Source: Mesostigma viride | Lineage: Eukaryota > Streptophyta > Mesostigmatophyceae > Mesostigmatales > Mesostigmataceae | Direction of reading: 5' to 3' | Length of the DNA stretch: 64,000 nt | Assembly (NCBI GenBank): GCA_009746045.1 | Contig: RPFO01000164.1 | Span: forward strand, 2,346,321-2,410,320 | Part shown: positions 612-64,000 of the stretch, one piece after another | Numbering within the stretch: position 1 is the stretch's first letter | Layout: the number at the start of each line of letters is the position of its first letter | The notes under the pieces: generated by a model | Databases searched by the model: none | Told to the model about the DNA's origin: nothing | What the model saw: the letters and a program-made list of their open reading frames with translations, nothing else | Program-made: the position numbers and the translations under genes

Positions 612-6906
<6,295 letters not shown>

Positions 6907-26269: not shown

Positions 26270-27481
26270 TTACTGGCCCTTGCCGAACTCAATGCCCTTG
26301 TCCACATTGCCCTTGAGCATGTCCTTGGCCTTCTGAAGGCCCTCTGTCTCAAACGCGGACAGGGTGCCCAGGGGTAGGATCTCCTCGACACCGTTGGGAC
26401 CCAGGCGCACCTTTGAGGCGAAGAAGGGCTGGTCTGGGTATAGCGGCGACTGCACGAACGTGCATTCGTGCACGTTCGTCTCGCCATTCAGGCCACGCAG
26501 GAGAGACTCGGTGAAACGAGCCGCTGCGTAGGCCATGGACAGGGTGGCCGAGCCGGCACCGCCCTTGGCCTCGACGACCTCAGTGCCGGCCTCCTGGATA
26601 CGGCCAGTCAGAGCGACCAGCTCATCCTGGGTGAAGGTGACCGCTGGCTTGGTTTGGGAGAGCAGTGGCAGGATGGTCACGCCAGCGTGGCCTCCGACGA
26701 CGGGGACGTCGACATCCTTGACGTTCAGGCCCTTCTTCTCAGCGACAAAGGTGTTGGCACGGACAATGTCCAGGGTGGTCACACCGAACAGACGCTTGGG
26801 GTCGTACACGCCGGCCTTCTTGAGCACCTCGGCGGCGATGGGGACGGTGGAGTTGACCGGGTTCGAAATGATGGCGATCAACGCCTTGGGAGCGTTCTTG
26901 GCGATGGCCTCGATCAGGGTCTTCACAATGCCGGCGTTGATGTTGAACAGGTCGTCACGGGTCATGCCGGGCTTCCGGGGCACACCGGCAGGGATGACAA
27001 TAAGGTCCATGCCTTGAAGGCAGGCAGCCAGGTTATCGGCTCCCTGGTAGGCCTTGACCTGGCAAGGAGTGTTGCAATGGCTCAGGTCGGCCACGACGCC
27101 ATTGACATTAGCGATATCGTAGCAGTGCAGCTCGCCGATGTGAGGGCTCATCTTCAGAAGCAGCGAAAGCGGCTGGCCGATGCCGCCGGCAGCGCCGAGA
27201 ACCGCCACCTTCTTCGCGGCGCATGAGGTCACCTCCCGGCGACCGGCCTGCACGTGAACGTCCATACGGCTTTGGCGAGCCTTAAAGGGAGCGCTGTCGG
27301 AGCCCATCACGAGATGTTGAGGGCGGGCGCCGGAAAACACCGTCAGCGAAGATGGCAGGGTTGCACGAGGCGCCTGCACAGCGGGGGCGCTGCGGGTTGA
27401 TGCCGAAAAAGAAGCTACCGATGCAGGGCTACAGAACTTAACGGTAGCAACATTGGCGACGGAAAGAGACGCGGTAGCCAT
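26270..27481 (-). CDS. MDH: NAD-dependent malate dehydrogenase, plastid-type precursor
   Basis: This is an intronless 403-codon frame from ATG 27481 to TAA. It interconverts malate and oxaloacetate with NAD. Residues 1-88 are Ala/Ser/Arg-rich with few acids, as in a plastid transit peptide, although mitochondrial or peroxisomal targeting cannot be excluded. The mature part begins [15 protein letters not shown] (Rossmann loop 97-102). It has substrate arginines in [11 protein letters not shown] (R169, R175), NPVNS (N208), LDIVRANTF (D238, R241) and the catalytic histidine in GGHAGVTI (H265). Length and motifs match the mitochondrial/plastid-type MDH family. Codon use is strongly GC-biased, as expected for a well-expressed gene. 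It is the clearest host gene in the window. Confidence 0.96.
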
Positions 27482-30663: not shown

Positions 30664-30846
30664 AGAGGGCTGTTTTTTTTTAGTATGTTAAAATCCAGGG
30701 TTTATATTTTTAATAAACCCTTGAATCTTTATTTCTGCTTTATTTCTTGTTGTTTCGTCATAAACTGTTACGCTAACTATGTGAGAAGGAACAAGGGATT
30801 AATGTGTGATTGTTCCCCATGCTTACCACACATGGATTGCCCCATT

Positions 30847-30915
30847 AAATTAAATTAAATTAAATTATAACATGTCTCCGTTGGGAGATCATGTAGCACA
30901 TATTCCAGGTTGGAT
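30847..30915 (-). mobile_element. Minimal LINE 3'-end insertion with 12-bp target duplication
   Basis: Read on the minus strand this is only about 20 bp of 3' UTR (ATATGTGCTACATGATCTCC), the hairpin loop, and a TAATTTAATTT tail. GATTGCCCCATT is duplicated exactly on both sides (30835-30846 and 30916-30927). It is a heavily 5'-truncated target-primed insertion and is younger than the surrounding transposon. Confidence 0.85.
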
Positions 30916-31310
30916 GATTGCCCCATTCAACACCACATACACTTGCCGTCCAGGTTTTACATCTCGGCTCGGGTAGCGTCAAATGTGGGCGAGCTGCAAC
31001 TTCTGATTTGCTGCTCAAATAATGCTTGATTTGAGGACCAGTGCCGCACTTGGAGCCAGTTCTTATGTAATGCACTATTCATGACTCCAATATGGTATAA
31101 AAGCAATCATGTAACTGACACCATGGCACAGGTATGAGGCGTCTTGATGATCAACATGTGGAACAGTAACACTTCATTGACAGGCTGGCTTCAATTGCGT
31201 GCTTGCTATCATAATTGTTAACTAGTGCCATAGTAGCCTGATAGCAAGATCGCGGCTCCGCGGAAGGTGACCACCAATTGCATTCACCAGCATTAAATAT
31301 GGTCATCTTG

Positions 31311-31507
31311 GCAGCGGGCAGCGGGCAGCGGGCAGCGGGCAGCGGGCAGCGGGCAGCGGGCAGCGGGCAGCGGGCAGCGGGCAGCGGGCAGCGGGCAGCG
31401 GGCAGCGCGCAGCGGGCAGCGCGCAGCGGGCAGCGCGCAGCGGGCAGCGGGCAGCGGGCTGCGGGCTGCGGGCTGCGGGCAGCGGGCAGCGGGCAGCGGG
31501 CAGCGGG
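31311..31507. repeat. (GCGGGCA)n 7-bp tandem array
   Basis: Nearly 200 bp of GCGGGCA units with variant GCGCGCA and GCGGGCT copies. It is open in several frames, producing spurious Ala/Ala/Arg/Cys-Pro proteins. It lies inside the 8.1-kb transposon downstream of the transposase gene. Confidence 0.93.
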
Positions 31508-31760
31508 GCGAAGTACTGCCAAAAAAAGGGACCCTGTTTTGGGCTGGGCGAAGCCAGCGGGTGCCACTAGTGCTATTGTAAGACAGACCACAATGGCCAC
31601 CGAGCAGCCCACCCATGCCGTAATGTCATCCCGTCATGTCACGGCATGCCACACACCAAGCATAATACACGCCATGCAATTAAGCATCTCGACCACCCTA
31701 CACTCCCGGCTGGCCCATGCCGCCCACGCCACCCGCGCCACACAAGGCAAGACAATGTAT

Positions 31761-34700
31761 TCAGTCATCATCCATGCTGTCGTTCTCCTCGTCGCTGGGC
31801 TGGCTGGCCTCCTCCACATCCTCCTCGCCCAAGTCACTGTCCTCCAAATCTGCAGCATTGTAGGAGTGACGCGTGGCAGTTGCCGCCCGCCTCAACTGCT
31901 TCCTCCCTCCTCCGAGGGGTGCCGCACGACTTGTGCCAGCTGCCGGGTGCGCTGGCGGCTGCCCGCGCCTCCCACGAGTCTGCACGCCCCTACCGCCTCG
32001 CGTAGAAGGCTCCGCATGTGCGGATGCATCCTCCTCGGCCACGTCAGGCTCAGCCCCTGCAGTCTGCCCAGCCGAGCCCTGCAGCTTCAGGTCCCCCGCT
32101 GCAAGAATGCCCTCCTCAAGCTGTGGGATAACGATCCCAGGGCACGAACACAAAAGGGACTGCAGGTTCAGGTATGAGCATTGATGCCAATATGATTCCT
32201 CCTCCCATGCATGAGTCGGGTCATCTTGCCAGCGGATGAGGGCCATTTGACGAGCGGCATCCACCGCCGCCACCCTGCCGTGCTCCCGCCTTGCCTGAAA
32301 CATGGCGCACACGCGCGTGCCCACCGGAATCCCGCCAGCCACGAGATCCTGGAACGCGCGGCTTGCGGAGTCCTCAGTCGCCTGCTGGGAGACGTAGCCA
32401 TCCCATTTCATCGCCGTGACTAGCGCGGGCGTGTTGGCGATGGCGTCCCTTGTGTTTTTCAGCAGCACGCCGTCCTTGCTGAGTGAAACGGCATACTTCT
32501 TCTTCCCCTTGTTCCACGTGGACAAGAGGATGGACGAGGGTGCCACCTGAAAAGTGTGCTTCGGCACCCCTCTCGGCGGTGGACAAATGGCCGAGTGAGG
32601 GCTCCAGCGCTGCCACTTCCCAAAGTAGGACGGTGCGCGGAAGCATTCCAGCTCGTAGCGCTGCCCCTCCGTGCCTACCTGAGGTGGCACCACGGACGCC
32701 ACGGTGGCGTAGACCACTGGCGTCCACGTGGGGCTTGACGCCACGTGCTCCGGCAAGACTGCCAGAACACTGTCACCTGCTTTCAACGCATCGCAGGCGG
32801 TGCGTGACGCGACCTGCAGCTCGATGCGGTGATTCGCCCGCTCCCATGCAGCCTGCGTGAAGCCGGCGTGGCGGACCGGCTCGACCAGGGGCTGCGCGAT
32901 GCGAGCCGCCTCTGTGGCCAGCTCGACCAGACGTTCGTCCCGCGTCAGCTCGGGAGTAGGCGCTGCCGGTGCACGGCCGCGAATGGCACGTACCATGGCG
33001 GGTGTCAGCCACGGCTCGATTTCCCACTCCACCGGGACTGCGCCGGGCTGCCTTGGGAGCTTGTCCAGCCAGTCGCCCCACGACAGGAGCTCAGGCATGC
33101 AGCTCGAGAAATAGCGCCGCAGGTTCGGGTTGCCAGGGATGCCCGCAATCACTCGCTTGATGCGCGGGAGCTCATTCTTGAACCAGTCCGCGTCGAACGG
33201 ACACCAGGGCGGCGGCGTCTCCAGGTCTTCCATCGGCGTGCCTGGAGCAAACACCCGGCACCCATAGTAAACCTCCCCGTCCTCGGTGTACATGGGCTGT
33301 CCTTCCTTAAAGCCCACCGGGAACCAGGTGCCGCGGCGGAGAAGCTGCCACCCGAAATATGCCCGGCCATCCTCGGCCTTGCGAAAATGGGTGTGGTGCG
33401 GCTTAGCTGACGCTGGCCCCTTGTAGGGAATGCTGTCGGGCCCGATGTCTTGGCAAAAATCGGCGCTGTTGGCCCACCCAGCCAAGTCCTTGTCCTTATG
33501 CTTCGCGATCCAGGCGGCCACGTTGTAGGCTTGAGCCAGCATCCGCACCATCGTCCCGTCCGGCACGTGACGCATCTTGGTCGGGTCGGCATCTGAGTTC
33601 TTGAAGGCATCCTTCCAGCCCCCGATAAACGCCTCTAGCGTCGCATAGGGTGTGCACTCCAAGCCGGAGCGTCCGTCCTTCATGTAACCCACACCGATAC
33701 CGAACATCTGGTCTGGGTCACAGTGCGAGTGGCCCCTCAGCAGGCGGTGCAGGAAGACGTTCTTGAACATGCCGGTGGCCACCAGCATCCCGGCCCAACA
33801 CAGCACCGTGTTGTTTCGGTTTTCGCTCCCCCCGTCAACCTGCACATGGAGGTCAGGTGGCATTGGCCTCCCGTCCTTCGCCCATGGCTCAGCCTTGCAC
33901 ACCAGCGAGAGAGCATCCATCAGCATGGTGACAGTAAGGGAGCCCGTCTGCCCCTTGGTCAACAAGTAGGGCAGGCCACAGTAAAAGAGGGCCTTCCAGC
34001 CATGCACCACGCACGCGTACCAGGAAAACGGGAACACGCCGTCAGCCACTTGCTTCCACACATCGGAGCCGTTGGAGAGGAAAGGCACGCGGCTCTTCTG
34101 CTTGTCCATCTTGTCGATGACGATCTGCAGGAACGCCCAGAGACACAGCGCGAGCATGAACTCGTGCCTGCGCTCGTAGAAGTATCGCCTCTCATCTCGG
34201 TGGCTTGCGTTGTGCAGGGCCCACGCTTTCTCGTACGTGGCGCGCAGGTCCTGCCGCTGCCCGATGCCCCTCCGCATCTCCCTGAGGTTGGCGCAGTCGT
34301 TGCAGATGCCGGCATTGCGCTTGAAAATCCTGAAGACAATCTTGGGGGAGCCAGGGTGGTAGTTGCCCTCTGCCACCTTGAGCCACACCTCACGAAAGGC
34401 CTTGTAGTTCAGGTGGTCGCCCACCATGCTACGCACATCCTCGCAGTAGTCCTGCTCCCAGATCAGCTTCAGACAGTCGAGGTCCAGCTGCACCACATTC
34501 TCACCGCTCGCTGGGTTGTAGTCGCCCTTGCTCTGCGCGTACGCAATGATCCAATTGGCAGTCACCTCCCTCACCTCACTGCGACCGGTGATCCGCGCCG
34601 CCTTGTCTGCCTGCTGCAGCTGTTCAGAGGTCAAGCCTAGCTCGTCGAGGGTGATATCATCGTAGGCGAACTCGCCCGACTCGTGCACAGACTCTGCATG

Positions 34701-35279
34701 CACCGCCGCCTTCAAGAGACTGTGCCACACAGGTGCCGAGATGCACAGGACAGCCTGGATAACCTTGTGGCAGGCGACAATCTCGGCCTTGTCACCATTT
34801 GGCATGCTCACAGGCAGGGACATCTGGCCCTTCACATCGTACTTCCAATAAATCGGATGCGTGCCTCCCGGCGGCTCGACGACGATGTTCTGAAGTCCGT
34901 GCTTCTGCAGCAGACTGACCACGAATTAGCTGCGCTCCTCCTGCTTTTGCAAGCCAAGGTACTTTTCTCTGGCTGCACACCAGACTCGGAAATCCCGGAC
35001 TGAGGTGCCGACTGGTCCCATGCAATCCTTTTGGCAGCATGTGCGAATAAGGCTCATGTCAGCGACGATGACGCTGTCCACCAGTTTCTCCGACCGCACC
35101 GTGGCGATGCTCTTTCTCCCTGCTTGCCTGAGTTCGCTACCAAGGCAGCCAGCTGCCCCCGGCTGGTTAGAATCCGTGCCGAGGGAGCCAACATTGGTGA
35201 CGCACACGCTACCATCCGTGTCGACAAAGGCTGCTGTCCTGCCGCCGGGGGTGGCTGACCTCGAACAAGAAGACGCCAT
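31761..35279 (-). CDS. DUF7869-type transposase-like protein, interrupted by one in-frame TAA
   Basis: From the ATG at 35279 the frame runs 117 codons to TAA at 34928-34926. It then continues in the same frame for 1,054 more codons to 31761, so the full product would be about 1,170 residues. Numbered from 34922, it has a CNDC pair (C207, C210), then an IVIDKMDKQKSRVPF motif (D270/D273). VHGWK follows, then LHVQVDGGSENRNN (D363, E367) and LLRGHSHCDPDQMFG (H398, H400, D402, D404). Spaced acidic residues with GH-H..D..F and D..EN.N are characteristic of DUF7869 proteins and look like an RNase-H/DDE catalytic core. The last 30 residues are highly acidic. The first 80 residues lie in the palindrome arm and are duplicated, inverted, at 36693. 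Transposase is inferred from TIR context; the TAA may be an inactivating mutation. Confidence 0.72.
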
Positions 35280-36944
35280 TTTCAACGCATGGTGCGCAGC
35301 TGTCAACTGAACGTGGACCTGTCCACATGACCGACTGATAGAGAAACTAGTAGTCAATGCACAACTCCTACAGAAGACTGAGCTAATTTCCACACATTTA
35401 CATCAGTTCATCCTCGTAATGCATTACTACCTCGTAACACATTCACAAGCAGTTAGTCGACAGTGGCAAAATGCAGTTGCCGCGGAAGTACGCAGGTTGG
35501 CGTGGGACAAGCCAACCTGGCAGTGAAGTGTCATGCATAATACGCGGGGAAGCACCTGAGTTAGGCGGGAACTGGGAAGTCGAGTTGGTCGGCGAGCTGA
35601 CAGGTTGTTCACCGACTTGCAGGCACCAAATTACGAGATGGTCAATTGCCAACCGAGATGTCAAGTTGTCAAACGAGATGTCAAGTTGACAACCGAAGTG
35701 CCTCCTGAACTGTCAACTAAAAGTCTAAAGCCGCAATCGACAGTACTACAAGTTGACAGTTCAGAAGGTAGGTCGGTTTTGCGCAATTGCCTACCTTCTG
35801 AACTGTCAACTAAAAGTCTCAAGCCGCAATCGACAGTACTACAAGTTGACAGTTCAGAAGGTAGGTCGGTTTTGCGCAATTGCCTACCTTCTGAACTGTC
35901 AACTAAAAGTCTAAAGCCGCAATCGACAGTACTACAAGTTGACAGTTCAGAAGGTAGGTCGGTTTTGCGCAATTGCCTACCTTCTGAACTGTCAACTAAA
36001 AGTCTAAAGCCGCAATCGACAGTACTACAAGTTGACAGTTCAGAAGGTAGGTCGGTTTTGCGCAATTGCCTACCTTCTGAACTGTCAACTAAAAGTCTAA
36101 AGCCGCAATCGACAGTACTACAAGTTGACAGTTCAGAAGGTAGGTCGGTTTTGCGCAATTGCCTACCTTCTGAACTGTCAACTAAAAGTCTAAAGCCGCA
36201 ATCGACAGTACTACAAGTTGACAGTTCAGAAGGTAGGTCGGTTTTGCGCAATTGCCTAGTTGACAGTTCAGGAGGCACTTCGGTTGTCAACTTGACATCT
36301 CGTTTGACAACTTGACATCTCGGTTGGCAATTGACCATCTCGTAATTTGGTGCCTGCAAGTCGGTGAACAACAACCTGTCAGCTCGCCGACCAACTCGAC
36401 TTCCCGCCTAACTCAGGTGCTTCCCCGCGTATTATGCATGACACTTCACTGCCAGGTTGGCTTGTCCCACGCCAACCTGCGTACTTCCGCGGCAACTGCA
36501 TTTTGCCACTGTCGACTAACTGCTTGTGAATGTGTTACGAGGTAGTAATGCATTACGAGGATGAACTGATGTAAATGTGTGGAAATTAGCTCAGTCTTCT
36601 GTAGGAGTTGTGCATTGACTACTAGTTTCTCTATCAGTCGGTCATGTGGACAGGTCCACGTTCAGTTGACAGCTGCGCACCATGCGTTGAAAATGGCGTC
36701 TTCTTGTTCGAGGTCAGCCACCCCCGGCGGCAGGACAGCAGCCTTTGTCGACAGGGATTGTAGCGTGTGCGTCACCAATGTTGGCTCCCTCGGCACGGAT
36801 TCTAACCAGCCGGGGGCAGCTGGCTGCCTTGGTAGCGAACGCAGGCAAGCAGGGAGAAAGAGCATCGCCACGGTGCGGTCGGAGAAACTGGTGGACAGCG
36901 TCATCGTCGCTGACATGAGCCTTATTCGCACATGCTGCCAAAAG
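35028..36944. repeat. 1.9-kb near-perfect palindrome between two divergent transposon genes
   Basis: The left arm (35028-about 35718) and right arm (about 36256-36944) are inverted copies differing by a few substitutions and small indels. The centre is the 93-bp array. Each arm carries the same ATG and about 80 codons (MASSCSRSATPGGRTAAFVD..), the start of the transposase frame on the left and a truncated duplicate on the right. The arms end abruptly at CTTTTGGCAGCATG. A bidirectional promoter in or near the palindrome is likely by position. Confidence 0.92.
35705..36262. repeat. Six 93-bp tandem units, each composed of inverted repeats
   Basis: Units start at 35705, 35798, 35891, 35984, 36077 and 36170. 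Each contains CTGAACTGTCAACT paired with AGTTGACAGTTCAG, and GAAGGTAGG paired with CCTACCTTC around a GCGCAATTGC core. The units are almost identical, which suggests recent amplification or gene conversion. Long ORFs appear on both strands but only because the unit length is divisible by three. Confidence 0.95.
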
Positions 36945-36986
36945 CACGGCAACAAGACAAAAGAGGAAGGTGGCACCTTCTGCTGA
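36693..36986 (+). pseudogene. Inverted duplicate of the transposase N-terminus
   Basis: ATG 36693 opens a frame that matches the first 80 residues of the minus-strand transposase (MASSCSRSATPGGRTAAFVD through VIVADMSLIRTCCQK). It then diverges at the palindrome boundary and stops at 36986. The duplication may be a by-product of palindrome formation, or may supply a 5' leader to the coiled-coil gene that follows. Confidence 0.7.
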
Positions 36987-38013
36987 CAAGGAAAACATTC
37001 CACCAACATCCAATTGCCAAGCTAAGGGCGTATCCAGGGCAGCTAAAGGCAGGGTTGCTGTGGTGTCTGTGGATGACGATGAGGATTGGATTGGTCATGG
37101 TGCGGACATGATGATTACAGACACCGACGATGCAACCATGCTTGCACACCAGGAAGCACAGCGACTGGCGACCAGGCAAAGCGTGCAGCGCGCATCTGAC
37201 AACAAGCTGCAGCAGTACACTAAGGAGCTGGAAAATGCAGCTGGAGAGCGGCGCAAGATGGAGGAAGAGCGGCGCAAGATGGAGGAAGAGCGGCGCAAGT
37301 TGGAGCAAGAGCGGCGCAAGTTGGAGCAAGAGGTGGCGCAGCTACGTAAGCGCGGGGAGGAGTCGCAGCAGCCGCAGTCGCTGTCGTGGCAGCAGCCGCA
37401 GTCGCTGCCGTCGCAGCAGCCACAGTCGCTGCCGTCGCAGCAGCCGCAGTCACTGCCGTCGCAGCAGCCGCAGTCGCTGCCGTCACTGCCGTGGCCACTG
37501 CTGCAACGGCAGCAGCCTCTGCCGCCACCACCATCACCACAGCCATCGCAAACAAGTCAGCCGATCCTGCAGCAGCTGTTGGACATGTTGGAGTCGCAGC
37601 CGCACTTGCAGCCGGTGCCATCCCCGCCGTGGCATCTAGTGGAGCAGCAGCCGCGGGAGCAGCAGCAGCAGTTCCTGCAGCAGATGTTGCAGCCTGTTCA
37701 GCCGCAGTTGCAGCGAAACTATGGGTTGCTGGGCATCGGCATGGGCGATACATCAGCAGTCAGAAGCATGAGCGACCGCGGTGTTCTCAACCATTCAGGC
37801 ATGGCAGCTGACCATGGTGTACAGCTAGCCATGCACCGGCTGGCAGACACGATGGATCGCTTTGCATGCCTCCTAGTACCTAACAGCCGTACTGAGTCCC
37901 ATGGCGCTCTGCCACTGTCGGCGTACCATGGCAATGCCAGCGCGGGGCGCGGGTTGCCGTACCAGTTCAACGGCAGCATCTATGGGCAACCTAGCGGGTG
38001 TCACATGCAATAG
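36918..38013 (+). CDS. Coiled-coil, Gln/Pro-rich protein of the transposon
   Basis: The frame is open from 36918 after a TGA; no ATG precedes the conserved-looking start (STATRQKRKVAPSADKENIPP). Initiation could be at the GTG at 36970, through splicing or a one-base shift from the ATG at 36693. RQKRK is NLS-like and DKENIPP contains a KEN motif. Residues about 70-120 from 36970 form a charged coiled coil with repeated ERRKMEE and ERRKLEQ units. SLPSQQPQ repeats and a Gln-rich segment follow. A helical C-terminal segment (MHRLADTMDRFACLLVP) ends near the stop. No catalytic motif is seen; it could be a DNA-binding or accessory subunit. Confidence 0.5.
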
Positions 38014-38429
38014 TAGGTGCTGCCATCCTTTTGTTAGTGGCTGACCAGTGACCAAGGTGGAGTGACCTATCGGTGGAGACAACTTTCTTGCCAATGTGGC
38101 TGGCTTTTAGTGGCTACCTTGGACATAGCAGGATGACAAGGTATTGGGCTTGCGAAAAATGTGATGGCCAAGAGAGTCAGCATGTAAGCTGGCTGCCATT
38201 TCGTCTTGACAGTGCCCAGCTGCACTTGACATCATAAAGGTTCTTGTGCTGGGTCCCTCATGCAATATACTTGGACTGCAGCTCCTTGATCAGTAGTTGT
38301 TGTGACTTCAAACTGCATTGGCATGGTCATAACACAGGCAAGTAGGCGCAAGAAGCACACACACACATCATTGATGAAAATCACGCGCATTGTAATATGG
38401 CATGGGATGTGCCAGGGCACTTAATTGGT

Positions 38430-38665
38430 GCATGGGGCATGGAGCATGGAGCAATCAGGCCATATGGCCGGGCATGGGGGGCTTGGTTTTGGGCACATGG
38501 GGCATGGGGCATGGGGCATGGGGTATGGGGGAATGGGAGCAACGATGTTTGACAGTTGGCTTGCGGTTCGTGGCATGTGTGGCATGGAGCATCGAACATG
38601 CAGTAGAAGGGCATGGGGCATGGGGCATGATGGGGCATGAGCCACATGTGGGGCATGGGGCATAT
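38430..38665. repeat. GGGGCATG-type short tandem repeats
   Basis: Irregular GGGGCATG/GGAGCATG units in several clusters within the right part of the 8.1-kb transposon. They are open in more than one frame but have no credible coding content. Confidence 0.8.
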
Positions 38666-38889
38666 TAGAGCATCACTAGGGCACAGTTCCAGGGCATGTG
38701 GCAGGTGGTTTAGGTGGCCAAAAGCATGGGAAATGTCGCATCTTGATAAATTTTTAATAAACGGTTCAGATTTTAACATACTAAAAAAAACCAGCCCAGA
38801 CTACGTCCTGAGCATGTGCGTAGGCCTCCACAAGGGCGGCCTTGAGCACCGGTTTCAGCAGCGGGTCGATCCCGGTTACGCTTGAGGCG

Positions 38890-40009: not shown

Positions 40010-41960
40010 TCATAGCTCCGTTGGGAGCATATGTAACACATAGCCCTGAGAAAGGGGCATCTATGGGTTTGTAATACAATCAGGGCTACAACCTGCAGGT
40101 GGAGGATGTACAACTGTCACCTGCTCTGGGTGCACAAGGTGCACCTGCACCGCCATGATGGTTCATGCCTCCTTATCAAGCACAGGCACCCAGGGGGGGC
40201 TTGAGGAGAGGGCCTAGAAGGCCTGCATGACATATGGGGTGGAGGGTATGTGGCTAGGCTATAGCTGGTGTACACATGGCATCTCAGCAGAGAGTAACTC
40301 CCTGCATAGGCATCGCATGGCTAAATTCTTAATGCATCATCCATGGGAGGTCCCATTGTAGGCTGGGCGCGGCTAAATACTGAAAGCAACATCCATGGGG
40401 GCCATTATGGGCGCACATGCGCGTGGGCCACTTGCAAAGGCTAAGCCTATCTAATCTACACTACTGGTATATTCCCTAGTCTGGGGTGGCAGGAGGGGCC
40501 TGCCAGGGCTTGTGGTCAACGTGGATGACCGCCCCCCTCCAGTATACCGGCTTCCCCCCTGCACGCTGCCGGAGCTGAAGGTAGGTCGGCCATAGCTCGC
40601 GTCGCCGCTGTTGCTGGGCCAGGGTCAAGTCGTCGTCCAGCGTGAAGCGAGTCTCCGCAAGCTTCTTGCGGCATTTAAGGAACGCCAGCTTGTCCGTCAT
40701 GTACTTAAAGGTGAGGAGCACGGGTGCCGGGCCAGCCTTCCCCCGCGCGCGGGGGAGGCGGACAGCCGACATGTCCAGCTCACCAGTGAGTAACATGGGG
40801 GCAAGAATGGCGCGCTTAACTGCCTCAAGGAGACTCGTGGAGGTCTCACCTGCCGGCTGGTCGAAGTGCTTGACGATGACATTGTGGCTGCGCTTGTCGA
40901 GCTCGGCCGCCTCGCGAAGGTCGAGGGCTTGTTGCTTGAGTTGTGCCGCGATGGTGGAGGTGGTGGAGGTGGTATGATGCTTAAGCAAGTCCGCCCAGGT
41001 GGAGGGAACATCACTGGCCGGGCCAGCAGGTGCCGGCTGGGCAGCGATTTCCTGCACCGCTTGGGCGGTGAGGCCGGCGGTGTCATGCAAGCTCTCAAGG
41101 GCGGTGGCGGTGGCTTGAAGGCGTTGGTCGAGGTCGAGGAGCTGGGCTTTGATGTCGGCAGTGAAGGCGGAAACGGCGGTGGAGGTGGAGGCGGCGGCGG
41201 TGGAAATGTGAGGAAGTTCAGCAGTCAGCGTGCCGCCGATTGCTGAAATGTCGGCAGCAAGGGGGGTCACGTGCTGCTGAAAGGCTTCCGCGAGGATGGA
41301 ACGAAGGGTGGAGGCGGTGACGGTTGCAGCCCAGATCTCGCCGTCGGAGCGCTGGAGAAGGGAGTTGAGGATGGCGTGCTGGAGTTCGGGGCGGGGGATG
41401 TTTCCGGGCAGCGGGAGGGGGAGCCATCGGCGGCCGTCCGGGAGGAGGAGGCGACGGTTGGAGTGGAGATGGTGGCACAGGTCGTGAAGCGAAGCGTAAT
41501 CCCCGAAGAAGATGCAGCGCATAGCATCGGTCGGAGAAATGGTGGCCCAGTCGTAATCTGCGACCTTGAAAGGCCGGGGCCGAAAGCGCGGTTCTGAGGG
41601 GCTTGAAGACCCTCCTGTTTGGTCGGCTGAGCGGGTGCGCTTGGGGTCAGGCGATGCAGATGGCGAGGCGTTAAGGCCGGGAGGTTGCTGGACGACCACC
41701 AGTGCACGACTAGTGTCATCGCCGCCTGCCGGACCTGATGGCGAAGCTGCAGCCGGAGCTGCAGACGTATTTTCATTGCCGAGCGCAGCCGCCAGGCTGC
41801 GTTGCGTATCTAGGCGCGTTTATTCGCCATATATTGCGTAATAGCGTCGGGAAATTATATCAGCATGTGCGTCTTAGAAAGACGAAGCGATTGTGATATT
41901 CACGGCTAAATTCGGTGCTCAAACGTGAAAGTTATGAGCTCCGACAGCCATGGCTACCTC
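40010..41960 (-). mobile_element. ORF1-only retroposon (family C), nearly complete
   Basis: On the minus strand the order is: 5' UTR (41960-about 41835), an initiator ATG with a shifted start (MANKRA then stop), ORF1, about 465 bp of 3' UTR, the GCTCCCAACGGAGC hairpin near 40020, and an AATT tail. There is no ORF2. Confidence 0.8.
40476..41699 (-). CDS. ORF1 protein of a family C ORF1-only retroposon (5' codons shifted)
   Basis: The open frame of 407 codons begins at an internal GTG. A frameshift near 41810 removed the authentic start, which survives as MANKRA. The N-terminal part is Ser/Pro-rich with PDPKRTRSA. A middle region has the ETIW.. then LAEAFQQHVTPLAAD helix and a TWADLLKHHTTSTTSTIAAQ segment. 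The C-terminus has PRARGKAGPAPVLLTFKYMT, KLAFLKCRKKLAETRF, TLDDDLTLAQQQRRRELWPT and PVYWRGAVIHV. It is an RNA-binding ORF1p by analogy with L1-type elements. Confidence 0.72.
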   Translation of the reverse strand: MVVQQPPGLNASPSASPDPKRTRSADQTGGSSSPSEPRFRPRPFKVADYDWATISPTDAMRCIFFGDYASLHDLCHHLHSNRRLLLPDGRRWLPLPLPGNIPRPELQHAILNSLLQRSDGEIWAATVTASTLRSILAEAFQQHVTPLAADISAIGGTLTAELPHISTAAASTSTAVSAFTADIKAQLLDLDQRLQATATALESLHDTAGLTAQAVQEIAAQPAPAGPASDVPSTWADLLKHHTTSTTSTIAAQLKQQALDLREAAELDKRSHNVIVKHFDQPAGETSTSLLEAVKRAILAPMLLTGELDMSAVRLPRARGKAGPAPVLLTFKYMTDKLAFLKCRKKLAETRFTLDDDLTLAQQQRRRELWPTYLQLRQRAGGKPVYWRGAVIHVDHKPWQAPPATPD

Positions 41961-42400: not shown

Positions 42401-42824
42401 AACGCATGCTAAAGACTGTGGAGCGCGCTGTGTACATAGTCGAGGGCGCGGGCTCGCCGGCCTCGTTAATTCTCGTTCTGTATAGCTAGGGGTTGAAGGC
42501 ATTCCTTTAGTTTGTAATTGACATATGCACCCACGTGCATGCACGCAATCACGTGTCTATTAATTAATTAATTAATATGCACCCACGTGATGCAGTCACA
42601 GGTTTATTAATCAATGAGATCACGCGTTATCAAAAGCGCCTGTCTGTACGTTGTTCGAGTATGGAAAATTATGATACTAGAGATGACATGCAGTCTTACA
42701 ACATACCAGTTGTCTCACTAAATACTTCTTAACTGTCCACAATATTTTACATCTTCTCCGTGCAATAGTACCTCAATAGGGAGCCTGTAGGGCCTTCCAT
42801 GCACGGTGCAACGACATGTATTGA

Positions 42825-44800
42825 ATTGAATTGAATTGAATTGTAACATAACTCCGTTGGGAGTATATGTAGCACACAGCCCTTGAGAGGGGGGCATATG
42901 GCCTATCATACATCCTAAGCTACTTCCTGCAAGGGTGGGGATGTAAAGGACCCTTGCTCTAGGTGCACCAGGGCACTTGCATCCCATGATCTTCAAGCTA
43001 TGCCCAGCGAAGGGGGAGCCTGTCATGGGGGGGAAGAGCAGCATAGCTATACAAAGAAGCTAGGGCATGGCGTCTCAGCAGAGAGTTACTCCCTGCATGG
43101 GCACAACATAACTAAATAAAGCTAGGCATCATCTGGGGTGTGGCTCATCATAGGCACACATGTACATGATTAAGGAAAGCGCGTGGCTTAGCTAGGATAG
43201 TGCCTCTAGGAGGCGTACATGTACATGGCCACGGTCTATCTATTCTGCACTACTACTGCTGTATTCCCCTAAGCTGGGGCGTCTGGAGTCGCTGGGGCCG
43301 CGGGGGGGGGGGGGTCGCCTGCCAGGGCTTGTGGCCGACGTAGATGGCCGCCCCCTTCCAGTACACCGGCTGGCCCGCCTTGGTCTGCCGGAGCTGGAGG
43401 TAGATCGGCCATAGCTCCCGTCGCCGTTGTTGCTGCGCCAGGGTCAGGTCGTCATCAAGGGTGAAGAGAGTCTTCTCGAGCCGCTTGCGGCGTCTGAGAA
43501 AAGAAATCTTGTCCGCCGGGGTCTTAAAGGTGAGAAGGAGCGGGGGCGGCCCTGCCTTACCCCGCGCGCGGGGAAGGCGGTGGGCGGCCAGCGCGATCTC
43601 ACCGATAAGGCCCATGCGACCAAGGATTTCTCGCTCAAACGCACGCAAAAGCTTCTCGGAAGTCTCACCTTCCTCCATGGTGAAGTTCTTGACAATGACG
43701 TTGAGGCTGCGCTGGGCGAGCTCGGCCTCCTCGCGGAGGTCAAGCGTCTGCCGTTGGAGCTGGGCTGCGACGGCGGAGGTGGTGGAGGTGGTATGTTGCT
43801 TAAGCATGTCCGCCCAGGTGGTGATGGGAGGAGCATCGCCGGCCAGGCCAGCCGGGGCTGGCTTGGCGGCAATGTCCTTCACCGCCTGGGCGGTGAGGCC
43901 TGCCGTGTTCTGCAGAACCTCGATAGCGATGGCGTTGTCCTTAAGACGCTGGTCGATGTCACGGAGCTGGGCGGTGATGGCGTCGGAGGTGGAGGTGGTG
44001 GCGGTGGAGGAGGCGAGGAGGGTGGAGGTGGCGGTGGAGATGGTGGAGGTGGCGGTGGAAAGGAGGGGAAGCTCGGCAGTCAGCGTGCCGCCGATGGCCG
44101 CCACATCTGCAGCAATGGGGTCCACGTGCTCCTCGAGGACCTCCTTAAGGAGTGAGCGGAGGGAGGATTCGGTTAAGGTGGTGGTGAGAGGCTTGGGGGG
44201 CCAAAGCTCCCCGATGGAGCGTCCAAGGAGGGAAAAGAGAGCGAATTGCTGGAGGAAGGGGCGGTGGAGGCTGGGAATGATGTCGAAAGAGGCGAGACGA
44301 ACCCAGCGAGGGTCAAAGAGGCGACCTTGGTTGAAGAGCTGCTTGCATAGTGCAAGAAGCGAGGCGTGCGTTCCATAAAACACGCAGACCAGGATGCGTT
44401 CCGGGTTAAGCGTGTCAAGGAAGCCGGGCTGGCTGGCTTCGGCGACAAAGTCGAGCTCTGTCCAACTCGGCTCGGCAGAGCGACTGCGCTTGGGTTCAGG
44501 CGACGCTGCGGGCGAGGCGGGCTCAGCAGGCGGCTGGGCGACCACTAGAGCTTGGCTAGTGGCGCCGCTGCCTTCTGGGCCGGTTGGCGAAGCTGCAGCC
44601 GGGGCTGCAGACGTATTTTCATTGCTGAGCGCAGCCGCCAGGCTGCGTTGCGTCGAGAGGCGTTTGCTCATCGTATAGTGCTCGTGGCTATAACGACATG
44701 TATGTCAAGCGATAAGTCGTATTGATAGATTTGGCCACGTAATTACCCAACTTTAAAAAAAAATGATGGCCCCATGGTGGAAACCAGTGTTACGTCGGCC
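42825..44800 (-). mobile_element. Complete ORF1-only retroposon (family A)
   Basis: On the minus strand the short 5' leader precedes a complete ORF1 (44671..43253). About 420 bp of 3' UTR follows, ending at the ACTCCCAACGGAGT hairpin (about 42850) and an (AATTC)n tail (42819-42842). It is the reference copy for the interrupted copies at 11490 and 21016, and carries the empty TTAA site. Confidence 0.85.
43253..44671 (-). CDS. Complete ORF1 protein of family A retroposon (472 aa)
   Basis: ATG 44671 to stop without interruption. Residues 1-70 are Ala/Ser/Pro-rich with a basic SPEPKRSRSA patch. About 90-170 is a conserved globular region (PERILVCVFYGTHASLLALC, FALFSLLGRSIGELW) also seen in copies at 25260 and 53490. 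About 180-300 is a helix-rich and Ser/Thr-rich segment with coiled-coil character (DAITAQLRDIDQRLKDNAIA). TTWADMLKQHTTSTTSAVAA follows. The C-terminus carries PRARGKAGPPPLLLTFKTPA, FLRRRKRLEKTLF, TLDDDLTLAQQQRRRELWPI and GQPVYWKGAAIYVGHK. That arrangement parallels the RRM plus C-terminal domain of L1 ORF1p. No zinc knuckle was seen. Confidence 0.82.
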   Translation of the reverse strand: MSKRLSTQRSLAAALSNENTSAAPAAASPTGPEGSGATSQALVVAQPPAEPASPAASPEPKRSRSAEPSWTELDFVAEASQPGFLDTLNPERILVCVFYGTHASLLALCKQLFNQGRLFDPRWVRLASFDIIPSLHRPFLQQFALFSLLGRSIGELWPPKPLTTTLTESSLRSLLKEVLEEHVDPIAADVAAIGGTLTAELPLLSTATSTISTATSTLLASSTATTSTSDAITAQLRDIDQRLKDNAIAIEVLQNTAGLTAQAVKDIAAKPAPAGLAGDAPPITTWADMLKQHTTSTTSAVAAQLQRQTLDLREEAELAQRSLNVIVKNFTMEEGETSEKLLRAFEREILGRMGLIGEIALAAHRLPRARGKAGPPPLLLTFKTPADKISFLRRRKRLEKTLFTLDDDLTLAQQQRRRELWPIYLQLRQTKAGQPVYWKGAAIYVGHKPWQATPPPPRPQRLQTPQLRGIQQ

Positions 44801-45377: not shown

Positions 45378-45589
45378 AAGGTACAAGCACGACAACATGC
45401 AGACAAAAATATACTAATGAATATGGAGCATTCATAGCCCGACCGTGCTGACTCTGCCTAGCATAAGCTACCCACACACAATACCATGTTGTCCCAATTT
45501 ATGGAGGCTCACCTTCGCAGGCGAATCACCCAACCCACCAGAGGGGCACACCACACATTTTGGTGAAGCAGATTTTGGTGAAGCAGCAC

Positions 45590-46250
45590 GGCCACCACGG
45601 AGCATGGTCTATAGATACCGGTCCGCATGGCCACCACGGAGCATGGTCTATGGATACAGGTCCGCATGGCCACCACGGAGCATGGTCTATAGATACCGGT
45701 CCGCGTGGCCACCACGGAGCATGGTCTATAGATACCGGTCCGCATGGCCACCACGGAGCATGGTCTATAGATACCGGTCCGCATGGCCACCACGGAGCAT
45801 GGTCTATGGATACAGGTCCGCGTGGCCACCACGGAGCATGGTCTATAGATACCGGTCCGCGTGGCCACCACGGAGCATGGTCTATAGATACCGGTCCGCA
45901 TGGCCACCACGGAGCATGGTCTATAGATACCGGTCCGCATGGCCACCACGGAGCATGGTCTATAGATACCGGTCCGCGTGGCCACCACGGAGCATGGTCT
46001 ATAGATACCGGTCCGCATGGCCACCACGGAGCATGGTCTATAGATACCGGTCCGCATGGCCACCACGGAGCATGGTCTATAGATACCGGTCCGCATGGCC
46101 ACCACGGAGCATGGTCTATAGATACCGGTCCGCGTGGCCACCACGGAGCATGGTCTATAGATACCGGTCCGCGTGGCCACCACGGAGCATGGTCTATAGA
46201 TACCGGTCCGCATGGCCACCACGGAGCATGGTCTATAGATACCGGTTTGC
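45590..46250. repeat. 39-bp minisatellite, about 17 units
   Basis: The unit GGCCACCACGGAGCATGGTC then TATAGATACCGGTCCGCAT is repeated about 17 times with CAT/CGT and ATAGATACC/ATGGATACA variants. Because 39 is a multiple of three and the unit lacks stops, both strands are open in more than one frame. This gives artefactual HHGAWSIDTGP and SIDHAPWWP proteins. Confidence 0.95.
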
Positions 46251-46520
46251 GCACGGCACGCAGAGGACAGTGCAGTCGGTACGGAGATGGGAACAAGCAC
46301 ACGAGCGGAATCACCCAAGTTCCATGGTAGGAAAAGCATGCCGCGCAGCCATCAAGAAAAGGTCTTACGTTTGTAGGGAGCCATGTGAGCGAGCATGCTG
46401 ACGGCACCGGGAAAAGGCAGCCACCAACGCTGCTTTCCCGGGGGCGCTGGCAAATACTTGTCCCGTGTGCCACCGGTGGCAAACAGTTGTCCCATGTGCC
46501 ACCTTGCTCAGACTGCTCAC

Positions 46521-60621: not shown

Positions 60622-63600
60622 TTAGACAGCTTGCTGAGATGGGTCCATCAGAGACTGAAGAACCTTGTATTGCACTGCTGCCTTCTGCACTAGCTTGGTC
60701 AAAGCATCAGCAGGATTGTCAACCCCAGGGATATGCTCAATATTGGCCAAGGAGGACAACTCCTTAAGAAGGAGATAATCCAAGTCCCTACTTCTGGCCA
60801 TCTGCCTGTGCACAAACTGCACCATCCCCATGGAGTCTGTTTTTAGAAGAGTGGTAACCTGAAGTGGCCAAGGAGTGTTAGAAGTCATCTGATGAAGCAA
60901 CTCCTTCAGATAAAGGCTTGTGTGAATGCCTTCACAAATAGCCCTGCATTCTGCCACATCACTGCTGACAGCCACCCGTTTGTGCAGGCGACTAAACCAG
61001 CTCACCAAACTCCCCAGGCCTTCCTGTCTGAGCACAAAGAGCCCTGCAGCCCTGCCCCTGACCTTGGAGACCTGCCTGCTGTCCATTGAGCTATCCACAT
61101 ACAGCTCCATGCAAATGGGTTGTGATAAATCCACTGCAGACAACAGAATGCCAGATGAAGCCCTGACCTGATCAGCCACCTTGGCAGACCCTAGCTCCAC
61201 CAGCATGTCATCAGGCAACCTGGCTATGACCATAAGGTCTGGCCTGGAAATGCCTGCCACCCAAGCAACCATGCCCCTCACCATGGGACACAGTGCCTGT
61301 GTGATGGTTGGAGGAAGCTTGCTAATGAGGGTCTCTTGATAGTCATTGCCCCCCACCAGCAGCATACGCCACTCCCCTCCCTTCTTCACCAGTGTGGCCT
61401 CCATGCCCACAAACAGCAGAGGCTCATTCTCCACCTGCCATTGCTCCCTACCCAGAGGAAACTTGGACTTAATGATGGAGATCAGCTCCTTAAGCCACGA
61501 CGTGGGAGCTATCAGATGTAGGTCATCCCCGTGCAGCGAAGCATACACTGGCAGGCCTTCCCATTGCCCCAGAAACAGACAGGGGTCTACAGGAGAGACC
61601 TTCAAGTTGCAATGCTCCTTCAGGAAACGGTTGAGAGTCTCCCTCCAGATTATTGGACTTGACCTCAGGCCCTCCAGGCCCTTGAGGATTTTAAGGAACT
61701 CCGTGTGGATGTCCCTTTTCCATACAGCAGGCACCCTAACATAGAAAGGCGTCTTGCCCTCCCACTTTTCCTGTGCCACATCTGCATCACCCTCCAGAAA
61801 TGCCCTCTTGAAGTCTATCACCACTGAGCCATAGTCCAAGCCCTTGTTGAGAAGGCCTAGAAAGACACACAGCAGCAGCCTCCAAGTATCATGCAGCATG
61901 CCAGGGGTATACAACTCCTCAGCAGTGCACTCACCAGTACCCTTGAACTCATTCAGCACTGGCCTGACATGTGGTACCTTGACCCCGTCCACCTCCTTCA
62001 TCTTGATGACAAACTTGAGCTTGAGTAGACGTCGTGCAGGAGGCAGGTCATTGACAGGTTCCACGCATTTCTTGGAGATCCAGTCCTCCCCAGATTTAAT
62101 CAGACCCAGTGTGACCTGGGGACACATAATGGGAGAGGACATGAGCTTCACCAGGCCTTGGTAGTTGATAGGGCTGTGTCCAGCAAGTGAGTGAGGACCA
62201 ATGCCCAAACTGCTTGGATGACTAGCAGCTGGCAGTATGAGGTCATCAACCAAGGGCTCCTGCCCCTGGCACACTTGCACACGCTTAACCGTCCTGGTTA
62301 CTGCACGTGATAGGTGAGTGGTCCTGAAATTAATCAGTGGGACCTGACCAGCCCCTTCCTTAGTCAGGAGAGAGGACGTGATCACTACCCCATCCTGGCA
62401 TAGGAAATTCTGCCCCAGAAGAGCAGGTCCTTGATAGCCCTCCAAGACACAAAAAGCAGTGTCCTGTCCAAGGATAGGAATGAATACCTCACCCAGTACC
62501 TTCACGTGTACCCCGCCACTGAAGTCAGACACAAACTGATAGCTGGGTTCAGACATGCTGTACCCTGCTGCAGCCCTGGTCCCAATAATGGAGACCTGAG
62601 AATTAGTGTCTACCTCTAAGGCAGTGTCCAGCCCCAGATTGCCATGCCACCTGAGCTTGGCTACCTTGGGCTGCTTCTTGGCCCTTTGTAGAGCCCCAAT
62701 CAATCCAGCCAAACTTGTCCCCCTGGGCTTGGTTAGTGCCTTGGGCTTGACAGTTGACTCCCCAGCTGTTGACCTTGCAGCCTGTTCAACAAGTACCTCT
62801 GCAACCTGGCCAGGGCTGACAGATTCCCCTGCAACAGATGTGGTCGTTGCGTCAGTGATGTCACCTGGGACCTGAAAATCCTGCAGATCCTGTGAGCCTT
62901 GTGCCTGACTGCCCTCATTCATCAGGTTAGGCTTGACATATGACCAACTCAGCCGGTGTACATGCTTTGGTTCGTCCTCCATGCTGACCAAGCATGCGTG
63001 GCTAGCTTCATCAACCTGGGTAACCACCCCAGGACTCCAGCTACCACGTTTGCCATAAAGGCTAGGTTCCTTCCAAGCTAGGACCTTCTGACCCACTTGT
63101 GGCTCCAGCATCTTCCAACCCCGGTCCTTCTCCCTCAGCTTGGCAAAGGTGACATGTGCAGCATGTTTCCAGCCCTCCAGCACATGTGGTGGGCACAGGC
63201 CATGATATAGACCCATTGGGCTGACAGCAACTCCATCATAGTAGAAGTTAACCCTGCTGTTCAGCTGCTGCTCCACGTTCCTCAGCCATGCACTCCTGAC
63301 AAGTGCAGGTGCAGACAAGGGTACCCAGTCTTCAGAGATGATCAATTTCTTGACCTCCTGGATTGCCCTCTCGATAGCACCCTGCTGCCCATGAGCCTCC
63401 CTAGGTGTAACCAGCAACTCAGGAAGGGTAGGATCACCCTTGAGATGCTGAAACTGCATGTCCACCTGGATCCTTGTGGTAGGAAACTTGGCTCTTACAT
63501 TCTGCAGGGCAGCCAGCAAGTACCTGTTCTTCATAGAAGGTAAATGCTCCAGCACCTTGTATTTCGTGTACCTGTCCACGCACACCAACAGTTGCATGCC

Positions 63601-64000
63601 CCTGATGTGTTGGATATCACACTGCAGATCACCAATGCTCTGAGGTAGAGCTTTGGCATGTGATTTCCTGGGCTTGTTGGAGGACAACTGGCACTTACAC
63701 CGTGAGGCAGCTTGCTGACACGCCTTAAGAAGGGGTGCCCTGCCCATACGGAAGGCAAAGTTGTTTGACAGAGAAGTGGCATGCCCAAACATGTTGTGGA
63801 TTCGGGCACCCAACTCCTGGTACACAGAGGAAGCAGTCCCTGGCACAGTCAGGACTGTGCTGTCAGGTTGTCCAGCATCACCATGCTGACTTCCATCCTG
63901 TTCTGACTCAGAGCCTGAGTCACCCTGCTCATGCCCAACACCTGGACCGCCAGCAGGGACCACATGCATACCACCAGAGGCCTTCACACCCCTCTGTGGT
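60622..64000 (-). CDS. pol: Copia-type retrotransposon pol: integrase, retropepsin-like domain, RT, RNase H (5' partial)
   Basis: The frame is open from the window edge to the stop at 60622. Residues are numbered from 63987. An integrase zinc motif (H64, H69, C90, C97) precedes the catalytic set D124, D176, E206, the last in QQGAIERA. A retropepsin-like domain follows at about 450-540: LEVDTNSQVSIIG, then ALLGQNFLCQDG. RT has VIDFKRAFLEGD (D725) and YASLHGDDLHL (D821, D822). RNase H has MELYVDSS (D965), SSDVAECRA (E1013), KTDSMGMV (D1051) and the HIPGVDNPADALTK end. RT and RNase H directly after integrase is the Copia order. The protease-like domain between IN and RT, DTN instead of DTG, and HGDD instead of YVDD are unusual. 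The frame is uninterrupted, suggesting recent activity. Confidence 0.88.
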   Translation of the reverse strand, partial: PQRGVKASGGMHVVPAGGPGVGHEQGDSGSESEQDGSQHGDAGQPDSTVLTVPGTASSVYQELGARIHNMFGHATSLSNNFAFRMGRAPLLKACQQAASRCKCQLSSNKPRKSHAKALPQSIGDLQCDIQHIRGMQLLVCVDRYTKYKVLEHLPSMKNRYLLAALQNVRAKFPTTRIQVDMQFQHLKGDPTLPELLVTPREAHGQQGAIERAIQEVKKLIISEDWVPLSAPALVRSAWLRNVEQQLNSRVNFYYDGVAVSPMGLYHGLCPPHVLEGWKHAAHVTFAKLREKDRGWKMLEPQVGQKVLAWKEPSLYGKRGSWSPGVVTQVDEASHACLVSMEDEPKHVHRLSWSYVKPNLMNEGSQAQGSQDLQDFQVPGDITDATTTSVAGESVSPGQVAEVLVEQAARSTAGESTVKPKALTKPRGTSLAGLIGALQRAKKQPKVAKLRWHGNLGLDTALEVDTNSQVSIIGTRAAAGYSMSEPSYQFVSDFSGGVHVKVLGEVFIPILGQDTAFCVLEGYQGPALLGQNFLCQDGVVITSSLLTKEGAGQVPLINFRTTHLSRAVTRTVKRVQVCQGQEPLVDDLILPAASHPSSLGIGPHSLAGHSPINYQGLVKLMSSPIMCPQVTLGLIKSGEDWISKKCVEPVNDLPPARRLLKLKFVIKMKEVDGVKVPHVRPVLNEFKGTGECTAEELYTPGMLHDTWRLLLCVFLGLLNKGLDYGSVVIDFKRAFLEGDADVAQEKWEGKTPFYVRVPAVWKRDIHTEFLKILKGLEGLRSSPIIWRETLNRFLKEHCNLKVSPVDPCLFLGQWEGLPVYASLHGDDLHLIAPTSWLKELISIIKSKFPLGREQWQVENEPLLFVGMEATLVKKGGEWRMLLVGGNDYQETLISKLPPTITQALCPMVRGMVAWVAGISRPDLMVIARLPDDMLVELGSAKVADQVRASSGILLSAVDLSQPICMELYVDSSMDSRQVSKVRGRAAGLFVLRQEGLGSLVSWFSRLHKRVAVSSDVAECRAICEGIHTSLYLKELLHQMTSNTPWPLQVTTLLKTDSMGMVQFVHRQMARSRDLDYLLLKELSSLANIEHIPGVDNPADALTKLVQKAAVQYKVLQSLMDPSQQAV

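Follow-up and report, generated by a model that had tools for sequence, protein, structure and literature searches.

The 64-kb stretch of the Mesostigma viride genome (440 Mb in 2,243 contigs) analyzed here, hereafter the window, contains a transposon copy of 8,131 bp at positions 30667–38797, delimited by paired ends and a 3-bp duplication. Inverted-repeat comparison, genome matches and a pattern search place its terminal inverted repeats at 30667–30695 (left, plus strand) and 38769–38797 (right, minus strand). They are 29 nt long and 97% complementary, with one mismatch, as the original prediction had it, and the AGA triplets described with them are likewise present in the sequence on either flank, at 30664–30666 and 38798–38800 (both on the plus strand). 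Across the family, the paired ends read GGGCTGG(T)nAGTATGTTAAAATC. A minisatellite of the 7-bp unit GGGCAGC, recognized by eye, lies near the left end (31314–31507), and scattered GGGGCAT-like repeats lie near the right end (38430–38665; counted in the reference copy, L019, and seen in the sequence of the window copy). Comparison with L019 also revealed an 81-bp insert at 30847–30927 that is absent from that copy. The insert has a (TTAAA)n end and a 12–13-bp direct repeat, GATTGCCCCATT; similar sequences, of the form (AATTG)n...TCCGTTGGGAG, occur at 42820, 14279, 15519, 24340 and 55542, and the insert resembles a short retroposed repeat carrying a pentamer tail.

Elsewhere in the window, which is G+C-rich, a frame at 26270–27481 resembles, by eye, a plastid-type malate dehydrogenase, and a 1,121-aa frame on the minus strand at 60622–63987 resembles a Ty1/copia polyprotein, also by eye. 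Two related minus-strand frames (40476–41699 and 43253–44671) have the appearance of LINE ORF1 proteins when judged by eye; a comparison of the first with Pfam gave nothing significant. The frames at 45445–46482 and 2286–3679 consist of tandem repeats, of RSMVYRYRSAWPP and NQPT/QPAS types, and are probably minisatellites rather than genes.

Within the element, a putative transposase frame of 1,172 codons occupies 31761–35279 on the minus strand. Over 1,172 residues it shares 99.7% identity with its uninterrupted counterpart in L019, and it has one internal stop, an in-frame TAA at codon 118, read from the sequence at 34926–34928 (minus strand). The 1,053-residue frame noted earlier is indeed present, at 31761–34922 on the minus strand, but it is only the part after this TAA of a frame beginning at 35279. 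The best reference copy is L019, which is 9,186 bp long, lies on contig C810 and has identical 29-bp ends; its minus strand carries a single uninterrupted frame for a 1,172-aa protein with PF25273/DUF7869.

A partner gene, gene 2, lies on the plus strand. In L019 it shows, by eye, a stretch rich in Cys and His, another stretch, a coiled coil and a tail rich in Q and P, and it has an in-frame stop where the window copy reads through. The frame list and comparison with other copies show that the window copy retains the 3′ part of gene 2, with its coiled coil and its Q/P-rich sequence, at 36970–38013 on the plus strand and is missing the 5′ part. The latter is replaced by an inverted duplication of the transposase upstream region, with 551-nt arms (99%), which self-comparison and comparison with other copies place at 35021–36951; 93-bp tandem repeats form the center of this palindrome (35701–36258; comparison with other copies). 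Relative to L019 and L030, the palindrome is a rearrangement of the window copy. The predicted 8.1-kb element at 30667–38797 is one copy of the family, but its length is not the canonical one, as the 1.9-kb inverted duplication replaces different sequence of about 1.9 kb present in other copies. With its stop at codon 118 and its rearranged second gene, this copy departs from the canonical form.

The most numerous members of the family measure 6.3 and 7.1 kb and are internal-deletion derivatives that lack most of the DUF7869 gene. The 6.3-kb class retains residues 1–120 and 1064–1172 of the putative transposase, with a 4-base overlap at the deletion junction, while the 7.1-kb class retains residues 1–129 and about 1035–1172. 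Since these copies are unable to make the DUF7869 domain, they must be moved by a protein made elsewhere. In the 6.3-kb class, gene 2 remains open, with frames of 238 and mostly 601 codons; that of the 7.1-kb class contains a stop and is divided between frames. The transposase of L030 is spread over two frames, and that of the C667 copy is stop-free over residues 2–1053. No copy with both genes intact was found among the copies read, L019 having its stop in gene 2.

Searches of the genome with the left 94 bp and the right 100 bp of the element gave 40 and 38 matches, mostly at 97–100% identity. The terminus pattern GGGCTG-N(1-20)-GTATGTTAA was found at 76 genome sites, against none for the reversed control. 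These comprise 58 sites that form 29 paired copies, 15 unpaired sites, some of them truncated at contig ends, and three partnerless sites of odd length (C335:5015137, C887:4435632 and C1480:1442253) that are probably chance matches. The expectation that the same paired ends would recur at other loci is thus borne out by 29 copies with both termini. An exact 3-bp target duplication flanks 22 of the 27 copies that have both ends in one stretch, as well as the C667 and C2022 copies, the ends of which were fetched separately (TTG and GAG), giving 24 of 29 paired copies in total. The other five are L016, which has flanks unlike each other and is probably chimeric; L024 and L028, with flanking triplets one base off; L025, with CAG versus CTG; and L038, the flank of which is lost at a contig end. 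Under the assumption of independent copies and equal base frequencies, the chance of at least 22 matching 3-bp flanks among 27 is about 1e-35, a value that is only indicative because at least two loci are present twice. When the duplicate loci L015 and L022 are dropped, the 20 exact sites display 16 different triplets, and there is therefore no strict target motif.

Our survey of empty sites employed the joined flanks of 17 insertion sites; for six of these, the comparison was restricted to fetched loci, and no entry was obtained for L019, L023 or the window site, where repeats occupied the best 40 matches. Uninterrupted empty sites were identified for eight of the 17 (L021, L011, L035, L012, L017, L018, L028 and L039), and two of these were verified letter by letter, so that the predicted clean empty sites do exist. 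The filled L021 site reads ..TTCATGAAA-element-AAATGTACTT.. and its empty counterpart ..TTCATGAAATGTACTT..; for L011, the filled site is ..GCGGCCTG-element-CTGATCAACC.. and the empty one ..GCGGCCTGATCAACC... The empty counterparts of L021, L011 and L035 were found among the fetched loci, L035 being located within a satellite of which the other units are uninterrupted and only 78–95% identical. The genome search located the empty site of L012 at C561 (305 bp, 100%), that of L018 on seven contigs (301 bp, 100%), that of L028 at 31 places (98–99%) and that of L039 at no fewer than 40 places (100%). The L017 empty site, at C2000, matches at 99% and is not proven exact, because it is four bases longer than the query. 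The L039 target is itself repetitive, its exact, uninterrupted copies in the genome numbering at least 40. At L021:8082-8377 and L002:1-195, an inverted empty copy of the target lies near the filled one on the same contig, which reflects either two alleles assembled as a fold-back or a genuine inverted duplication.

The element therefore has inverted ends common to dispersed copies (29 paired copies), a target duplication of fixed length (3 bp in 24 of 29) and sites empty of the element (eight of the 17 examined). Paired ends elsewhere and empty sites together establish what had been predicted, namely that it is certainly a TIR (class II) DNA transposon. Pairwise comparison of 11 copies from the 6.3-kb class gave a maximum divergence of 0.33%, with no substitution in 29 of 55 pairs; for 11 copies of the 7.1-kb class, the corresponding values are 0.13% and 45 of 55 (gaps uncounted in both). 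Such differences, at most 0.33% within a size class, indicate that the movement was very recent.

Using a Pfam scan, we located the DUF7869 domain (PF25273) in residues 328–408 of the 1,053-aa frame (33699–33941, minus strand), with E=4.8e-12 and 46.3 bits against a cut-off of 26. It is the only Pfam family above cut-off in the protein, and it is matched by all three members of a three-family alignment. The motifs noticed in the large frame at the outset are all present: IDKMDKQK from residue 269, DGGSENRN from residue 363 and GHSHCDPDQMF from residue 397. The protein cores read from two of the related groups, at L051 and L052, are 41% and 37% identical to the window protein, and IDKxDxxK, DGGSENRN and GHxHxDxDQxFG are kept across these three diverged families, which also have in common an upstream CxxC and 40 residues between D363 and D404. 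Invariant in the three families, all on the minus strand, are D270 and D273 of the IDKxD motif (34104–34115), the proposed first acid; D363 of DGGSENRN (33834–33836), the proposed second acid; and D402 and D404 of GHSHCDPDQMF (33711–33719), of which D404 is preferred as the third. From these motifs we infer that D270 (or D273), D363 and D404 may be the metal-binding acids of an RNase-H-type site. The picture from a crude propensity plot was mixed, with a strand before D270 and a helix, not a strand, before D363.

DUF7869 is found at 150 or more places in the M. viride genome (all 150 above cut-off when the best 150 of 275 candidates were scored), and a profile search of 14 control genomes found none. 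Among the best 44 of 932 candidates, the relatives form groups at about 46–48%, 36% and 32–34% identity. Several of the groups are multicopy and near-identical, as exemplified by 13 loci with an identical match and frames of 727–753 aa. Searching the PDB by sequence gave no match in one case and a single chance-level match (E=1.2) in another, and the best matches in NCBIfam and PHROGs, at E=5.4 and E=0.14, were likewise no better than chance. In IMG/VR, the single-protein query and the three-family alignment gave 4 and 45 stretches, respectively, none confirmed as relatives, and two DNA patterns gave 1 and 3 loci, none a relative; the three-family alignment gave 60 stretches in GTDB contigs, likewise none confirmed.

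Could the copies have arisen other than by insertion? Many are on small contigs; L015/L018, L021/L022 and L037/L038 each represent a single locus twice, and L014 and L016 have one flank in common, so not all copies are independent. These facts would suit segmental or assembly duplicates. However, the remaining flanks are mutually dissimilar (27 copies compared, 400 bp, E up to 1e-10), and the 3-bp duplications and uninterrupted empty sites are products of insertion. The empty sites refute an origin by duplication, to which we assign a negligible probability. As to the agent of movement, the 1,172-aa DUF7869 protein is most likely the transposase of the element, because its gene is intact in the full-length L019 and has lost its middle in the amplified non-autonomous copies, because its acids are kept at about 40% identity, and because there are several multicopy families. 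The role originally proposed for DUF7869 has thereby become a strong inference, and the enzyme would probably be of the DDD type. Counting against it are the five of 29 paired copies without an exact duplication, the helix before D363, the chance-level results against solved structures and other Pfam, NCBIfam and PHROG families, the lack of a copy, among those read, with both genes intact and, further, the 6.3-kb class, in which gene 2 is open while DUF7869 is deleted. The last point would instead favor the gene-2 protein as the transposase, with the DUF7869 protein as an accessory or regulatory passenger, and so would the presence of gene 2 in a sister family: relatives with 41% identity occur on C1713 and C1215, about 2.2 kb from the sister-family DUF7869 genes and divergent from them, so the two families have the two-gene plan in common. 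Yet gene 2 matched nothing in Pfam in the two parts scanned, and its Cys/His-rich, coiled-coil and Q/P-rich appearance was judged by eye; it is disrupted in the numerous 7.1-kb class; and, among the best 116 of 243 candidates, its relatives beyond the family occupy three places, as opposed to at least 150 for DUF7869. Two of these are the genes beside DUF7869 just mentioned; the third, at 39% identity, is on C191, 131 kb from the DUF7869 match there, and none of these candidates lies near other DUF7869 groups. Gene 2 as the source of the transposase is therefore improbable. If the DUF7869 protein has this role, it would bind the element ends, perhaps together with the divergently transcribed gene-2 protein, excise the element and insert it at target cuts with a 3-bp stagger, and gap filling at these cuts would generate the 3-bp duplication. 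The few copies with an intact gene would act in trans to mobilize those that lack one. A cut-and-paste mode, rather than copying, would be expected from the kind of element.

The placement of such a transposase is a separate matter, and a far branch of a named short-duplication superfamily (Zator/ISAzo13, Academ or CACTA/CMC) is a possible but rather doubtful home for DUF7869. In its favor, two reports also give 3-bp duplications for EnSpm and Harbinger (PMC12730594) and for Zator (PMC10045372), and our first comparison with ISAzo13 was in register at the second-acid region (E=0.064, probability 0.9%, reversed control 0.37). Nevertheless, with a larger ISAzo13 alignment of 74 sequences, the best alignment was not the earlier one and carried no meaning, and equally high scores came from 10 of 200 column shuffles. 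No Pfam transposase model matched, the ends are not CACTA-like, and there is no CxxC between D363 and D404. With the in-register match lost, we rejected Zator/ISAzo13 as the parent, the three rows on the DUF7869 side leaving room for a remote link. There is about an even chance that DUF7869 constitutes a eukaryotic DNA-transposon superfamily of its own, which would be characterized by 3-bp duplications that follow no strict target motif, by the IDKxD / DGGSENRN / GHxHxDxDQxFG motifs of a DDD transposase and, for some of its families, by a partner gene in divergent orientation. Such a superfamily may still move here, and many "uncharacterized" DUF7869 proteins elsewhere would be transposases or tamed descendants; as a transposase class of its own, its members could be annotated as mobile DNA and not as host genes. 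The prediction that the family is undescribed holds within the literature searched, which has no mention of DUF7869, PF25273 or IPR057191 and does not extend to Repbase. With these findings, the orphan domain DUF7869 becomes accessible to testing as an enzyme, probably a transposase, for which the ends and the duplication are known and the insertions are very young. The near-identical deletion copies clearly illustrate how non-autonomous copies can outnumber those of full length.

Among the known systems, CACTA, Harbinger, Zator and KDZ were compared with the element, and apart from the duplication length their features were not found in it. Maize En/Spm has a two-gene plan and internal-deletion derivatives, CACTA ends are CACTA/G, and Academ elements have 3–4-bp duplications. 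The present element resembles Academ in its short duplications, 3 bp here, whereas in the 1,172-aa protein Pfam detects neither a helicase nor an XPG nuclease domain. With CACTA/EnSpm it shares the 3-bp duplications and the two-gene plan with internal-deletion derivatives, but its ends are GGGCTG, and only DUF7869 is above cut-off, with no Transposase_21-type match. Its sequence also lacks the CxxC and H(3-4)H that are described for CACTA/EnSpm (CMC) between the second and third acid (PMC12730594). PIF/Harbinger (PHIS) is similar in its 3-bp duplication and its combination of a transposase with a second protein; however, Harbinger targets are TNA or ANT (PMC12477816), in contrast to the 16 triplets in 20 sites here, and there is no DDE_Tnp_4-type Pfam match. 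Zator/ISAzo13 shares the duplication length and, by eye, a DGG-S-N-like second-acid motif with a similar spacing to the third acid, but the window protein has no PF07592 match, and the profile comparison, with three DUF7869 rows, was not significant. The KDZ group (Zisupton, Kyakuja and Dileera) is described as large green-algal DNA transposons with long transposases (PMC8226300, PMC12477816), present in Chlamydomonas (PMC8226300). A long putative transposase and large size are common to our element, while the 8-bp duplications reported for Zisupton (PMC12730594) differ from its 3 bp, and there is no Pfam match. Finally, DUF1258 (Mirage) and DUF1280 (Chapaev), other families with no similarity shown to DUF7869, were later recognized as transposases according to a previous report (PMC3985635), and they provide a precedent for an orphan Pfam family proving to be a transposase.
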